IMG/VR virus record: IMGVR_UViG_3300020463_000137
Coordinates: 1 to 23,470 of that record
DNA length: 23,470 bases
Direction: 5' to 3' (one strand)
Origin: a virus
The position numbers and the translations under genes are program-made. Positions 3,335-16,437 of this stretch are shown here, piece after piece (positions within the stretch are counted from its first letter, which is position 1; each line of letters begins with the position of its first letter). The notes beneath the pieces were generated by a model, which saw only the letters and a list, made by a program, of their open reading frames with translations, did no database searches and was not told the origin of the DNA.

Positions 3335-4162
3335 TTAACCCATCATGTAATTGGGTGGTAACTCGTAACTTAATTGTATCTGTTCTTCTAATTTGTTTAT
3401 TTCTTCTTGCGCTTGTGAATAGATTTGTTCACCATTCATTTGAACACCACCTAACATAGCGACACCTTGAAACTTACTTAAATTAGTACCCCATTGTTTT
3501 TTGATTAATTGTATTAGGTATTTCTTTAAAAAGATATCATCAAATATATCTGTAAATGTTGATGGATCTAGTTTTCTATAACATTCGATAATAATAAAAT
3601 CACCAGCGTCAACATCATTTGACCAGTCCATATCTATGTATAGTCTATTCTTATGTTGATTAAATCTGATTGGTCTTTCACCTACAAGAATATGGTCTAA
3701 CATATCTAAATGTCTTAAGGTCATATCGTAGTGAATAATTGATGTAGATGAAAAATCGTATAAGTCGTTTAGTCTTAATTGATATCTTACATCAAACAAA
3801 TTTAGATTTGCTTTATCTGTAAAATCAAATAGTCTTGTAACTGAAACAACACTAGATGGCATTGGTATATAGTTTTTGCCTTCTACGAAACTGGCAGTAA
3901 CTGTACTGTCTGCCGTATCTGTTACTGTGGATAATGTCTCATTAGTTTTTGCCCTAGTTATATCGTCTGCTGTAACTTGATATTTTAAATACATTCTCTC
4001 AACACCATCATAGTGATATTGAGCAAAGTATTGTAACGCCTCGTCAATACGGTCCTCTACCTGATCATCTTCTACATTTATTTCGATTACAGGTTTACCT
4101 AATGCTCGAAGGCAATATTGTTTAAGGGTCTCTCTAGTCGTTATTGGGTTATTTTGTGCCAT
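3335..4162 (-). CDS. 13: Neck protein, gp13
   Basis: This is the partner of gp14 in the neck, acting at the head-tail vertex after packaging. The product has 275 residues (T4 gp13: 309). The family match rests on the N-terminal block with VIEINVEDDQVEDRIDEALQ followed by a YFAQYHYDGVER stretch, which is highly typical of marine T4-like gp13. The start is supported by AAGGA nine bases upstream. An exact late-promoter octamer at 4182-4189 lies 19 bases ahead of the ATG, making gp13 the first gene of a 13-14-15-16-17 late unit. A hairpin could mask this Shine-Dalgarno in RNA that reads through from the upstream fibre genes. Confidence 0.93.
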   Translation of the reverse strand: MAQNNPITTRETLKQYCLRALGKPVIEINVEDDQVEDRIDEALQYFAQYHYDGVERMYLKYQVTADDITRAKTNETLSTVTDTADSTVTASFVEGKNYIPMPSSVVSVTRLFDFTDKANLNLFDVRYQLRLNDLYDFSSTSIIHYDMTLRHLDMLDHILVGERPIRFNQHKNRLYIDMDWSNDVDAGDFIIIECYRKLDPSTFTDIFDDIFLKKYLIQLIKKQWGTNLSKFQGVAMLGGVQMNGEQIYSQAQEEINKLEEQIQLSYELPPNYMMG

Positions 4163-4169
4163 ATTATAG

Positions 4170-4193
4170 TCCTTATGAGACTATTTATAAGGA
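4170..4193 (-). promoter_or_regulatory. Hairpin enclosing the gp13 late promoter and Shine-Dalgarno
   Basis: Minus-strand TCCTTAT (4193-4187) pairs with ATAAGGA (4176-4170) across a 10-base loop. The 3' arm contains the gp13 ribosome site. RNA started at the local promoter (predicted +1 at 4176) lacks the 5' arm, whereas read-through RNA from the fibre genes would fold it. Confidence 0.6.
4182..4189 (-). promoter_or_regulatory. T4-type late promoter for gp13-gp17
   Basis: Exact TATAAATA octamer in the 38-base gap before gp13. With T4 geometry the transcript starts at A4176, giving a 14-base leader that holds AAGGA. Confidence 0.8.
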
Positions 4194-4200
4194 AAATAAC

Positions 4201-7200
4201 TTAATATCTTACAACTACTCTATCGCCTGAAGCAGGTGCCGCGTCTAGGGTTAATGTAGTACCAGAAATTGTAAAGTCCTCAGTAGGTTCTTGTACAACC
4301 CCGTTGATTGTTACCAAGAATTGGTTTACATTATATCCTGAAGCAATTGTAACAGTTGTGGTAGATCCATCACCAGCTAGTGTTGCTTTGTTGGCACCAG
4401 AAGACACTTTAAAAGTTTCGTTTGGTATGCTAACTGTTCTATCTGCTGTAGGGTCTATTACAGTAAGAGTTGTTTCAAAACTGTTTGCTGTACTACCTTC
4501 AAATACAACATTACCACCTAGATTTATGCCTGCATTGAAAGTTGTTTCCCCTGCCGCACTACCATCTATTGTTACGAAAGTTGTATCCGCACTACCGTCA
4601 GTACCTTTGAAGATAATATCTGTGTCATTACCTTGAGCGTCTATTGTAATATTACCAGAAGTTGTGGTTACATTTACAGCCGCGTCCCCAGCAGTAAAGT
4701 CATCATATGCTAATGATATACCACCTTGCATGTAGGTCTTAACAGTTGTAACATTGGTCATACGCATTGTACCACCATCGTTAATTAAGATACCATCACC
4801 ATCTGCTAATGCAGTTGTGCCTCTACTTGTACCACCGTCAATTAAATTAATCTCTGCAGGTGTAGCACTAATTTGATCTGTACTTGCAGCCGCAAAAGGT
4901 TGTAATGTACCACCTATGTTCGCAAGATTAATTGTTCTATCTGCTGTTGGGTCAACAACACCTAATGTTGTTTCAAAACTATCTGCCGTAGAACCTTCAA
5001 ATATGAAACTACCAGTTGTAGTAGTATTACCAGTAATCGCTGGTGTAGCAATTGTAGGACTTGTTAAAGTTTTATTTGTTAATGTTACCGTATTATCAGT
5101 ACCAACAAGAGTTGTAGTATCTGCAGGTAATGTGATTGTTATGTTACCAGAAAAGTCTGAATGGGCAGGTGCCGTTAATGCCGCATAGTGGGCATTTGAA
5201 CTTTCACAATACATTCTAATAGCAGATTGAGCACCATCGTTTTTAAGGTCAATCAAACCAGTAGTAAAAGTTATTCTATCGTTACCACCAAGTCTAAAGT
5301 CTATTTGGTCATCAGCACTTGCAGTAATTGATGTATCAGCGTCAGCGTCTAATATTAACTCACTGCCGTTCATGTCTATATTACCAGCAATTAATATTGA
5401 TGATCCTGAAAGTACATTGAAAGTATTGGCAGTAAATGTGAAATCGTCAGCGTTTGCAATCTTAATATCAATCTGATCGTCTGTACTTGCATGAATAGAA
5501 GTATCAGCGTCTTCGTCTAATATTAATTCACTACCATTTAAATCAAAAGATTTTAATTGTAATGCAACTGTACCACTATCGTTAGGTAAGTTGATTGTTC
5601 TATCTGCTGTTGGATCAACTACATTTAAAGTTGTTTCAAAAGAGTCCGCAGTAGAACCCTCAAATATTACACCACCAGTTAACTCAACATTTGAGAATGC
5701 CGCAGCCCCACCACCGGTTACATCTGTTAGAAATGCAACGGTACCAGAACCGTTTTGAAATGTAATTGTTCTATCTGCTGTTGGGTCAACAACCGCAAGA
5801 GTTGTTTCAAAACTGTTTGCAGTAGCACCTTCAAATACAACTGAACCAGTTGTTGTAATTGTATCTGATTGTAAAGTACCAGCAAAAACTACATTTGCAC
5901 CTGAGAAAGTTGCCGCAGTAGTTGTGCCAGATTTTATAATTAAGTTGCTTGAATTGTTTGTTAATGAAGCGAATTGTGAACCACCATCTAATAATAGTAC
6001 ATCACCGCCATCAGCGTCAACTTTAATATCTCCAGGTGCGTCAAGTGTAACATCTGTAGCACCGTTAAGTACAAAATCTAAAGATGTAGTGCCACCTGTT
6101 TTCAATGTGATATTATTACCAGCAGCGTCTAAATTAATGTCAGTTGCCGCGTCTAATGTAATAGTAGAACCTGAATCAATTTCTGTAATTACAGGTGTTG
6201 TTAAAGTTTTATTTGTTAAAGTATCAGTTGTATCTCTACCAACTAACTGTGTGGTTGCGTTTGGTATTGTAACTGTTCTATCTGCTGTTGGATCTTCTAC
6301 TGTTAAAGTTGTTTCAAAACTATCTGCTGTAGAACCCTCAAAAGTAAATGAGTTTGTTACATCAATAGTTGAGGAATCAATTGTAGTAGTTGAACCAGAA
6401 ACTGTTAAGTTACCTGCAATGGTAACATTTGCACCAGACATTGTGATTGCAGTAGTAGGTGTAGAACCTGATTGGATTCTTAAATTACCACCGTTGTTAT
6501 TCAATGCACCAAATGTAGTGCCACCATCTTTTAATGTAATGTCTGCCCCATCAGCGTCTAAAATAATGTCAGTAGCGGCGTCTAAAGTTATAGAACCAGT
6601 ACTATCTATTTCAGCGATAACAGGAGTTGTTAATGTCTTGTTTGTTAATGTGTCAGTAGTATCTCTACCAACAAGAGTTGTTGTTGCGTCTTGTATAGTT
6701 ACTGTGCGATCAGCAGTTGGATCTGCAACCGCAATAGTAGTTTCAAAACTGTCTGCTGTATTACCTTCAAATATTAACGGACTTGCATTACTAAAGATAC
6801 CTTGTGTTGCCGTTACTGTACTTGATGAAGTGATTGCACCAGAAGCCAATGTACCTGCAAAAGTTACATTTGATCCTGAAAAAGTTGCCGCGGTAGAAGC
6901 GGAAGATGATGATTTAATAATTAACTCACCACCAGATTGTGTAAATCTACCAAATTCTGTTCCGTCGTCTTTTAAGACGATATCTGCTCCACCAGCGTCT
7001 AAATTAATATCCGTTGTTGCGTCTAATGTGATAGTAGATCCACTATCTATTTCTGCAATAACTGGTGTTGTTAAAGTTTTATTTGTTAAAGTTTGAGTAG
7101 CACTATCAGAAACTAACGCAAAACCACCTGCCGTAGAACCATCATGGATTCTGATAGTATCTAGTGTGGTATCTACACTAATCTCACCTACAGCACCTGT

Positions 7201-7285: not shown

Positions 7286-7293
7286 TATTTATA
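7286..7293 (-). promoter_or_regulatory. T4-type late promoter for the 1017-residue fibre gene
   Basis: Exact TATAAATA octamer 31 bases ahead of the ATG at 7254, in the 47-base gap after the 642-residue gene. The predicted start is A7280, with a 26-base leader carrying AGGAGA. Confidence 0.8.
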
Positions 7294-9230: not shown

Positions 9231-9235
9231 GTTAC

Positions 9236-9243
9236 TATTTATA
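9236..9243 (-). promoter_or_regulatory. T4-type late promoter abutting the 642-residue fibre ATG
   Basis: Exact TATAAATA octamer only five bases before the ATG at 9230. The sixth base after it, the T4-type +1, is the A of the ATG, so the transcript would be leaderless. Confidence 0.7.
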
Positions 9244-12788: not shown

Positions 12789-12796
12789 TATTTATA
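12789..12796 (-). promoter_or_regulatory. T4-type late promoter for the 1171-residue fibre gene
   Basis: Exact TATAAATA octamer 19 bases ahead of the ATG at 12769. The predicted +1 is A12783, with a 14-base leader containing AGGGG. Confidence 0.8.
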
Positions 12797-12801
12797 TAGA
12801 T

Positions 12802-13143
12802 TTATCTGGTAGCGTTTGGACTAACTGTTACAATTCCTTGTATTACACGGGTAATTGAACTATCTGAGGTTTTTGTTAATTCTACATCATACACATATCT
12901 ACCTTCTTCTAATGCGGCAGTTTGTGTAGGCGTAAGTGAGATAGTAATTTCGCCTGTTGTTCTATCGTCTGCAAAGGCAACAGTAAAAGTGGCACTAGCA
13001 CTTGATGAACTATAAGACTTTCTTATTTGAGACGCACCAGTATGACCAGTTGTATCAAATAGGGAATCATCATCATTGAATACCGTAATGGTACTTGTAA
13101 ATGTTGCCCCTTGATCTATGAGTAAGTTTGCTATTGCAGCCAT
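12802..13143 (-). CDS. Small beta-rich structural protein, 113 residues
   Basis: I recognise this as a type common in marine T4-like phages, but not with an assigned function. The sequence is short and strand-forming: IANLLIDQGATFTSTITVF, a TGHTGASQIRKSYSSS segment, then LEEGRYVYDVEL and a terminal IQGIVTVSP. It reads as a single beta-sandwich, loosely similar to small baseplate or fibre-attached domains (BppU N-terminal-like), which is speculative. It has no signal peptide and no membrane segment. It begins six bases after the 71-residue gene and lacks a clear Shine-Dalgarno. A near-match late octamer inside a perfect 6-bp inverted repeat lies directly ahead of the ATG. It stands just before the three long fibres, so a virion role is likely. 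Confidence 0.8.
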   Translation of the reverse strand: MAAIANLLIDQGATFTSTITVFNDDDSLFDTTGHTGASQIRKSYSSSSASATFTVAFADDRTTGEITISLTPTQTAALEEGRYVYDVELTKTSDSSITRVIQGIVTVSPNATR

Positions 13144-13163
13144 AAAGACTATTTATCGTCTTT
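13144..13163 (-). repeat. Inverted repeat whose loop is a late-promoter-like octamer
   Basis: Minus-strand AAAGAC (13163-13158) and GTCTTT (13149-13144) are perfect complements around an 8-base loop, GATAAATA. The 3' arm touches the ATG of the 113-residue gene. Confidence 0.6.
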
Positions 13164-13364
13164 TGGTTCTTCTTTCGCTGTATCTACTGTTATTTCTTTT
13201 GGTATAGTAGTTTCGTAATATTTCAACAATACATCTATCTTTTCTATTTCTAGTTGATGTTTTAATTTAGATTGTTGTAATATCTGATATTGTTCCGCAT
13301 GTAATTTACCTTTTGGCGACAATGCGTCCATATCTATTGTATCAACTTTTTTTTCTTCAGCCAT
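13149..13364 (-). CDS. Small coiled-coil protein, 71 residues
   Basis: Function unknown. The protein is charged and helical: an acidic N-terminus (AEEKKVDTIDMDALSPKG), a central heptad-like helix LHAEQYQILQQSKLKHQLEI continuing to about residue 50, and an acidic tail ending in EEPKDDK. It could be a small chaperone or adaptor for fibre assembly, inferred only from size and position. The start overlaps the end of the oxygenase gene by eight bases, with GAGGAG inside that gene as its ribosome site, which supports real translation and coupling. Its last codons (DDK-stop) coincide with the candidate late-promoter octamer GATAAATA for the next gene. Confidence 0.72.
   Translation of the reverse strand: MAEEKKVDTIDMDALSPKGKLHAEQYQILQQSKLKHQLEIEKIDVLLKYYETTIPKEITVDTAKEEPKDDK
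13150..13157 (-). promoter_or_regulatory. Candidate variant late promoter for the 113-residue gene
   Basis: GATAAATA, one mismatch from the octamer, overlaps the final DDK-stop codons of the 71-residue gene and ends six bases before the ATG at 13143. It is exactly the loop of a perfect 6-bp inverted repeat. Initiation by T4 spacing would fall at or one base before the ATG. The mismatch makes this less certain. Confidence 0.35.
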
Positions 13365-14859: not shown

Positions 14860-14880
14860 AGTATTTATACAAAAAATACT
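14860..14880 (-). repeat. AT-rich inverted repeat overlapping a late promoter
   Basis: Minus-strand AGTATTT (14880-14874) pairs with AAATACT (14866-14860) across a 7-base loop. The octamer TATAAATA spans the loop and the 3' arm. It begins 13 bases after the 441-residue fibre stop. The loop is T-rich, but no T-tract follows, so it is not a canonical terminator. Confidence 0.5.
14862..14869 (-). promoter_or_regulatory. T4-type late promoter for the 243-residue gene
   Basis: Exact TATAAATA octamer in the 52-base gap, 20 bases ahead of the ATG at 14841. The predicted +1 is A14856, with a 15-base leader that includes AGGAG. Confidence 0.8.
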
Positions 14881-16219: not shown

Positions 16220-16437
16220 TTACTTACCATTCCTTTTAAAATTTCTTTTATTTCAAACATTTCTGCTTTTAATTTATTTATATCTCTCACAGCATTTCTC
16301 AAATCGTTTTGACTTGCTCTTGCCTCATTTATTCTTTGTACATGTACAGCGTAGGCACTTCTATCAGTATTGATAATAGCACCAGATCGTGTGTCTCTTA
16401 CGATTGTTCTATGACCTTCTACTTTTAGAATACTCAT
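16201..16437 (-). CDS. Small coiled-coil protein, 78 residues
   Basis: A 78-residue protein of unknown function, of a kind seen after the giant DUF4815-like gene in marine T4-like phages. The N-terminal half (ILKVEGHRTIVRDTRSGAII) looks beta-stranded. The second half is a helix, VRDINKLKAEMFEIKEILKG, with heptad spacing. It could link the large upstream structural protein to the fibres, which is inference from position alone. Its ATG shares one base with the stop of the 1998-residue gene (TAATG) and its end overlaps the 441-residue fibre start by 19 bases. It also hosts the late promoter of that fibre gene. Confidence 0.8.
   Translation of the reverse strand: MSILKVEGHRTIVRDTRSGAIINTDRSAYAVHVQRINEARASQNDLRNAVRDINKLKAEMFEIKEILKGMVSKWQQDK
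16275..16282 (-). promoter_or_regulatory. T4-type late promoter inside the 78-residue gene
   Basis: Exact TATAAATA octamer within coding sequence, 55 bases ahead of the 441-residue fibre ATG at 16219. The predicted +1 is A16269 and the leader 50 bases. It is the only exact copy that is intragenic, so chance occurrence in AT-rich coding DNA is somewhat more likely. Confidence 0.6.

Follow-up and report, generated by a model that had tools for sequence, protein, structure and literature searches.

A candidate late promoter six nucleotides before a start codon in a T4-like phage fragment may belong to a large class predicted to give leaderless mRNAs

Introduction

What is the function of the octamer GATAAATA at positions 13150-13157 of a 23,470-nucleotide stretch of viral DNA (IMG/VR record IMGVR_UViG_3300020463_000137, positions 1 to 23,470; hereafter the window), where it fills the loop of a perfect inverted repeat, overlaps the end of one gene and stands six nucleotides before the ATG of the next? 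A preliminary description of the window took it for a candidate late-promoter octamer and suggested that late promoters lying within inverted repeats may be a recurrent architecture of this phage. Late-promoter prediction has been unsuccessful in pelagimyophages according to the excerpts of PMC7029224 consulted here. We analyzed the marked site together with its orthologues and with late octamers in related phages, T4-like controls and IMG/VR loci.

Results

The window, a 23-kb fragment, derives from a T4-like phage akin to Pelagibacter phage HTVC008M, its nearest named relative, with which its gp13 is 91% identical. The annotation of HTVC008M includes a late sigma transcription factor; HTVC008M also encodes the ribosomal protein bS21, which is present in seven of the nine records checked. 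The late genes of the window (neck, tail sheath stabilizer, small terminase, baseplate wedge) lie on the minus strand, and all six copies of the T4-type octamer TATAAATA, as well as the single GATAAATA, which differs from it by one base at the first position, are on this coding strand. Four of the TATAAATA copies are predicted late promoters of leadered genes, namely gp13 (octamer at 4182-4189, 19 nt before the ATG, with the Shine-Dalgarno (SD) sequence AAGGA), a 1017-aa gene (7286-7293; 31 nt; SD AGGAG), a 1171-aa gene (12789-12796; 19 nt) and a 243-aa gene (14862-14869; 20 nt; SD AGGAG). Another copy, at 9236-9243, is separated by exactly 5 nt from the ATG (9230) of a 642-aa tail-fibre-like gene (TATAAATA-GTAAC-ATG, with octamer and spacer at 9231-9243) and is predicted to be the second promoter of leaderless type in the window; the homologue of this gene keeps the 5-nt spacing in seven of eight clade records, and AAAGGA is found immediately 5' of the octamer in several of them. 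A further TATAAATA, at 16275-16282, lies within a 78-aa gene and 55 nt upstream of the following one, and is also found in the related record G002 and in HTVC008M, a recurrence that the coding of a conserved R-D-I-N stretch could possibly explain by itself. The behavior of these octamers is that expected of T4-type late promoters, in agreement with their earlier reading as late-promoter sites, and GATAAATA is a credible variant.

At the marked site, the inverted repeat AAAGAC-GATAAATA-GTCTTT is exact on the minus strand (13163-13144), with the octamer as its loop, and its 3' arm GTCTTT (13149-13144) abuts the ATG of a 113-aa gene at 13143, all as first described. The 113-aa gene (12802-13143, minus strand) matches PHROG 1084 / 3304 (L-shaped tail fibre assembly). 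It was said to have no clear SD, and indeed the 6-nt spacer between octamer and ATG, which is GTCTTT itself (13144-13149), contains none. The 5' arm AAAGAC (13158-13163) consists of codons of an upstream 71-aa gene (13149-13364, minus strand) for which searches of PHROGs and Pfam returned no match. The statement that the octamer doubles as the last codons and stop of this gene holds for the last two codons, GAT AAA, and only in part for the stop TAG: the octamer covers TA, and the G is the first base of the 3' arm. The stop is located 5 nt upstream of the AUG of the 113-aa gene. A 236-aa protein encoded at 13357-14067 matches PHROG 274, labelled DNA endonuclease V (E=4.9e-12), and has no match in Pfam.

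A short distance between octamer and start codon is common in related phages. Across 282 unique NATAAATA sites from ten pelagi- and methylophage records (the eight clade records plus Mosig and Melnitz, duplicates removed), an ATG opening an ORF is found 5 nt after the octamer at 40 sites and 6 nt after it at 6 sites, against a background of 1.5 per distance; the Poisson probability of the 5-nt count is 3e-42, with the qualification that duplicates were removed by sequence key and that the records are related, such that the sites are not all independent. In the eight records, whose gene models follow a simple ORF rule, 29 of 181 coding-strand sites have an ATG at 5 nt and 7 have one at 6 nt, against 0-3 at other distances below 18 nt and a second peak at 18-19 nt (8 and 13). 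Of the 235 sites in the T4-like controls T4, KVP40, Syn9, S-PM2 and P-TIM40, by comparison, one has an ATG at 5 nt and none has it at 6 nt. Control words matched in composition and free of overlap with the motif gave no 5-nt peak on the coding strand (AAATATA, 1/214; AATATAA, 0/200), while three control words carry signals of their own (AATAAAT, 5/123 at 5 nt; ATATAAA, 4/241 at 5 nt and 8 at 6 nt; TAAATAA, 9/130 at 3 nt) that we take to be caused by their overlap with the motif when shifted. The 5-nt class is also present in 80 contigs fetched by gp13 rather than by pattern (12 of 242 sites, with 0-3 at other distances from 0 to 16). Among the matches listed from IMG/VR, the ATG opens an ORF of at least 60 aa at 115 of the 117 unique sites with 5-nt spacing, and for spacings of 6 and 7 nt the figures are 71 of 97 and 51 of 100; these loci were picked for GT after the octamer and for ATGGC, and their fractions rather than their totals are used. 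The IMG/VR loci are mixed with unselected loci in the fold z-scores, octamer-spanning pairing and first-base and sixth-base counts given below; the 282-site spacing, leadered A-frequency and base-before-ATG counts were made without them.

All nine five-nt ATGs of HTVC008M (starts at 6280, 7562, 19456, 31132 and 49760 among them) are annotated CDS starts, including those of the baseplate tail tube cap, a baseplate wedge subunit, the DNA end protector and a putative tape measure. When ten 5-nt frames were compared with PHROGs, two matched portal, one tail tube, one the head-tail adaptor gp13, one the DNA end protector, one tail proteins and one a virion structural protein, and three were unmatched. 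Counting six codon types as openers of the frame at 5 nt gave 41 ATG, 2 ATT, 1 CTG, 1 ATA and no GTG or TTG, a weak argument because 56 of the 59 annotated HTVC008M starts checked are ATG anyway (the other 3 are GTG). When proteins are grouped simply by shared words, the 5/6-nt class falls into 25 families, across whose members the spacing is held while the first base of the octamer and the spacer vary; the DNA end protector family, for instance, has 5 nt in HTVC008M, G003, Mosig and the methylophage Melnitz, and 6 nt in G001. Late genes with octamers come in two classes, NATAAATA followed after 5 nt (less often 6) by the ATG, and octamer followed by an SD-containing leader, with the ATG about 18 nt or further away. 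Members of one gene family swap between them: gp13 has 19 nt and an SD in the window, while its spacing is 5 nt in both G003 and G006, and HTVC008M and G004 have 8 nt. The gp13 leader of the window (4140-4200) has a strong fold (-12.2 kcal/mol; 0 of 200 shuffles as good).

Where transcription would begin can be estimated from T4, whose late octamer has its first base numbered -13 (PMC2988020, in the part consulted) and whose +1 is therefore the sixth base after the octamer. Leadered promoters of the phages studied here have A at this base in 81% (n=86) and 83% (n=112) of cases and a purine in 91% and 89%, A at this position being the sharpest preference after the octamer. With a spacing of 5 nt, +1 would therefore fall on the A of the ATG. 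The base preceding the ATG is a pyrimidine at 46 of 49 five-nt and 9 of 10 six-nt sites, compared to 93 of 193 leadered ones. At six-nt sites the sixth base itself is a pyrimidine in 78 of 96 cases versus 44 of 297 at leadered sites (Fisher 5e-33, among the matches listed), as expected if initiation shifts by one base to the A of the ATG. The marked site, where the sixth base after the octamer is T and the seventh is the A of the ATG start codon (GTCTT T ATG), seems to fit this six-nt pattern; its predicted transcription start would be at 13143 on the minus strand, placing the octamer at -14 to -7. G as first octamer base is found at 49 of 238 five-nt-spaced sites among the matches listed. From spacing and base preferences, we infer that the 5/6-nt class gives leaderless mRNAs.

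Conservation around the marked site is pronounced in close relatives and takes other forms further away. A 29-nt block (13139-13167, minus strand) is invariant in 13 of 13 close relatives, counting the window itself and several near-identical contigs, and GATAAATA stands 6 nt before the ATG in 12 of 12. Lineages that keep the block nevertheless diverge by as much as 50% at third codon positions of the 113-aa gene; 36 of 96 codons for conserved residues are identical, and five identical in a row would be expected by chance in about 0.7% of cases. The invariance of the block points to a constraint on the nucleotides such as a promoter would give, and does not single out pairing. As GATAAATAG also encodes D-K-stop, coding constraint could account for part of its conservation. 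Seventy-three of 80 orthologue loci were compared, leaving aside five matches from residue 6, one from residue 2 and locus L031, which has less than 40 nt upstream. The hairpin is found in 12, all 91-99% identical, and is missing from the remaining 61. Thirteen loci (71-81% identity) have instead TATAAATA, an SD and 18-19 nt between octamer and ATG; four (56-62% identity) have GATAAATA 5 nt before the ATG with other spacers and no hairpin; ten have an octamer 52-55 nt upstream; and 34, with no octamer within 75 nt upstream, presumably rely on read-through.

In RNA, the 20-mer folds with -4.8 kcal/mol, equalled by 0 of 200 shuffles, and its 71-nt context with -11.7 kcal/mol, 8 of 200 shuffles being as stable. 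The minimum free energy (MFE) fold extends the helix by CCA/UGG past a bulged A, such that the U and G of the AUG are predicted to be paired. The limits of this extended helix, CCAAAAGAC / GUCUUU-(A)-UGG (13140-13166, minus strand), which could form in read-through RNA only, are the same as those of the 29-nt block, and the invariance of the block means that the stem displays no covariation. A reading of the hairpin as a terminator was dropped, the stem having no trailing T run, as was one as a gene-43-type operator, the adjacent genes being structural.

The two other inverted repeats on which the recurrent architecture was based do exist (TCCTTAT/ATAAGGA at about 4170-4193 and AGTATTT/AAATACT at about 14860-14880), and neither is kept beyond 4 bp in G002. 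The proposed design was examined through perfect Watson-Crick stems, MFE against shuffles and partition-function pairing across the octamer. Stems of at least 6 bp, including or flanking the octamer, occur at 14 of the 97 unique promoter-like octamers of the eight clade records, and shuffling of the flanks predicts 13.7; this phage and its relatives thus show no enrichment of inverted repeats around octamers over shuffles, and the recurrence suspected in the preliminary description is not borne out. The octamer lies wholly in the loop at 3 sites versus 1.0 expected (p=0.09), two of the three being the marked site and its orthologue. For the six sites of the window, with octamers kept and flanks shuffled, one octamer-in-loop 6-bp stem has p=0.076 and any stem of at least 6 bp, found at 3 of 6, has p=0.092. 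Helices spanning the octamer are at chance level among the matches listed, with 11 of 238 five-nt and 5 of 105 six-nt sites in the top 5% of shuffles; the corresponding counts, also among the matches listed, are 3 of 36 at 18 nt and 4 of 47 at 19 nt. Compared to upstream-shuffled flanks, mean MFE z-scores (SE) among the matches listed are -0.26 (0.09) at 5 nt, -0.16 (0.12) at 6 nt, -0.69 (0.17) at 7 nt, -0.18 (0.22) at 8 nt, -0.28 (0.22) at 18 nt and -0.26 (0.20) at 19 nt, a slight excess of upstream structure of any kind. The inverted repeat at the marked site is most likely incidental.

The 7-nt class has an excess of octamer-spanning helices (11 of 69 in the top 5%, mostly IMG/VR loci L406-L525, among the matches listed), and T4 itself has more stems than expected (at least 6 bp at 15 of 30 sites versus a null of 6.7). 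On the minus strand of Mosig (MT647606), at about 93009, a five-nt site has an inverted repeat that takes in the AUG, with 11-bp arms TGTTGCATACA / TGTATGCAACA. The predicted promoter of a 147-aa gene in G001, G002 and G007 (G002 oriented 7672), GGTAACTT-GATAAATA-GTTATC-ATGG, is a second six-nt site with, by eye, a G-U-containing stem around the octamer, variants of which in L530 and L587 may covary.

SAR11 host genomes (0.79 Mb, reached via the phage bS21 protein) have no comparable peak in TATAAT-to-ATG spacing, and thus give no indication that the host is geared to leaderless messages. SD-like motifs before long ORFs are rare in the SAR11 host (96 of 639).

Discussion

Sequence, spacing, conservation and base preferences at 13150-13157 lead us to propose that GATAAATA is probably a T4-type late promoter of a large class, starting transcription at the A of the ATG or at most one base away from it and giving a leaderless mRNA for the 113-aa protein, and that the inverted repeat around it is most likely incidental. 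GATAAATA would act as a gp55-dependent late promoter of a pelagibacter-type myophage, used by the phage-modified RNA polymerase; the resulting late message would be translated from its 5'-terminal AUG without an SD. With the octamer doubling as C-terminus and stop of the 71-aa gene, the 113-aa gene may also be expressed by read-through and translational coupling. The hairpin would form in read-through RNA only and could hide the AUG there. The spacing of 6 rather than 5 nt and a first base other than T speak against this candidate promoter, as do the coding role of GATAAATAG, the 34 orthologue loci with no octamer nearby and the lack of a comparable spacing peak in SAR11 genomes.

Other readings of the locus need to be considered. 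The hairpin may be an RNA switch of the kind described for T4 e, soc, 49 and I-TevI, in which pairing of CCAAAAGAC with GUCUUU(A)UGG around the loop hides the AUG in read-through RNA while late-promoter RNA, which lacks the 5' arm, is translated. The T4 precedent (PMC3014915, as far as the text consulted goes), the predicted pairing of the U and G of the AUG and the coincidence of the helix with a block invariant in 13 of 13 close relatives all speak for such a switch, which is moreover compatible with a leaderless promoter. We nevertheless think it rather unlikely: the invariance of the block leaves no covariation, the hairpin is missing at the 61 more distant loci, including the four that keep GATAAATA at 5 nt, helices spanning the octamer do not exceed chance in either the 5-nt or the 6-nt class among the matches listed, and ribosomes completing the 71-aa gene would open the helix. 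Alternatively, there may be no promoter at the site, in which case GATAAATAG would be just the D-K-stop terminus of the 71-aa gene, and read-through and translational coupling would account for expression of the 113-aa gene, as its position inside the upstream coding end and the 34 of 73 orthologue loci without an octamer within 75 nt would allow. That, too, seems improbable given the exact 5/6-nt spacing in close and distant relatives despite different spacers, the frequency of GATAAATA in the 5-nt class (49 of 238, among the matches listed) and a nucleotide identity above that of synonymous sites of the next gene, where 36 of 96 conserved-residue codons are identical.

A fixed distance to the AUG would also fit a ribosome site, and the octamer might be a translational element, an AU-rich patch bound by the ribosome. 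This is very hard to reconcile with the occurrence of the same octamer 14 to 45 nt before leadered genes, where the predicted +1 is A, as in late promoters of T4. The recurrent architecture of late promoters within inverted repeats, for its part, draws on the stems at 3 of 6 sites of the window (p=0.092), the excess seen at 7-nt spacing (top 5% of shuffles at 11 of 69 sites, among the matches listed) and that in T4 (15 of 30 sites versus 6.7), but 14 of 97 sites against 13.7 expected in the phage's own clade, chance levels in the 5- and 6-nt classes among the matches listed and the fact that G002 does not keep the window's other two repeats make it highly improbable. The recurring feature is the spacing of 5-6 nt, which the preliminary description had missed, and not the inverted repeat; its idea is corrected in this sense.

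Beyond the promoter reading that we favor, a broader scheme can be imagined for Pelagibacter and related marine T4-like phages, in which one late sigma factor serves two late modes, one with SD leaders and the other, at 5-6 nt, leaderless and used by many virion genes. Phage bS21 would tune ribosomes toward leaderless messages late in infection, and the hairpin would shut the AUG in read-through RNA such that only late-promoter transcripts are translated. We regard this combination as distinctly unlikely.

The sharp NATAAATA-5-ATG rule supplies late-promoter candidates in pelagimyophages and marks start codons. If confirmed, it would mean that in the T4-like phages of SAR11 and OM43 in the ocean the messages of core virion proteins (portal, tail tube, gp13, DNA end protector, baseplate) are leaderless, and that late transcription is tied directly to SD-independent translation in phages that have their own bS21 and infect SD-poor hosts. 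We found no report of leaderless late mRNAs in T4-like phages in the main texts of the open PMC literature; in PMC9004378, on T4-like phages, the word 'leaderless' occurs once, in a gene-finder reference.

The predicted promoters share with the gp55/gp33/gp45-dependent TATAAATA promoters of T4 an octamer about one helical turn before the predicted start, its location on the coding strand, the association with late structural genes and a late sigma factor, the latter annotated in HTVC008M. They differ from them in the relaxed first base of the octamer and in that a large class places the predicted +1 on the AUG, whereas in T4 and the four other T4-like controls the octamers keep a good distance upstream from their leadered genes, a single site of 235 being at 5 nt. 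A relaxed first base is shared with the NATAAATA late motif of cyanophages S-PM2 and Syn9 (PMC2984593, in the part consulted), in contrast to the 5-nt class, which is missing in Syn9 and P-TIM40 (0 sites) and represented by one site in S-PM2. In T4 e, soc, 49 and I-TevI, according to the part of PMC3014915 consulted, the late promoter sequence lies within a hairpin and read-through RNA hides the start site. The marked site resembles them in that its promoter sequence is inside a hairpin and read-through RNA could hide the AUG; unlike them, its predicted promoter leaves no leader, its hairpin is limited to one small clade and selection on pairing is without statistical support. Leaderless mRNAs of bacteria and some phages start with AUG, have no SD and have their 5' end at the AUG. 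The messages predicted here have the same AUG start and lack of SD, and a start point that spacing and base preferences place at the AUG; what would set them apart is that a phage promoter of late-sigma type is predicted to drive many structural genes in this way.
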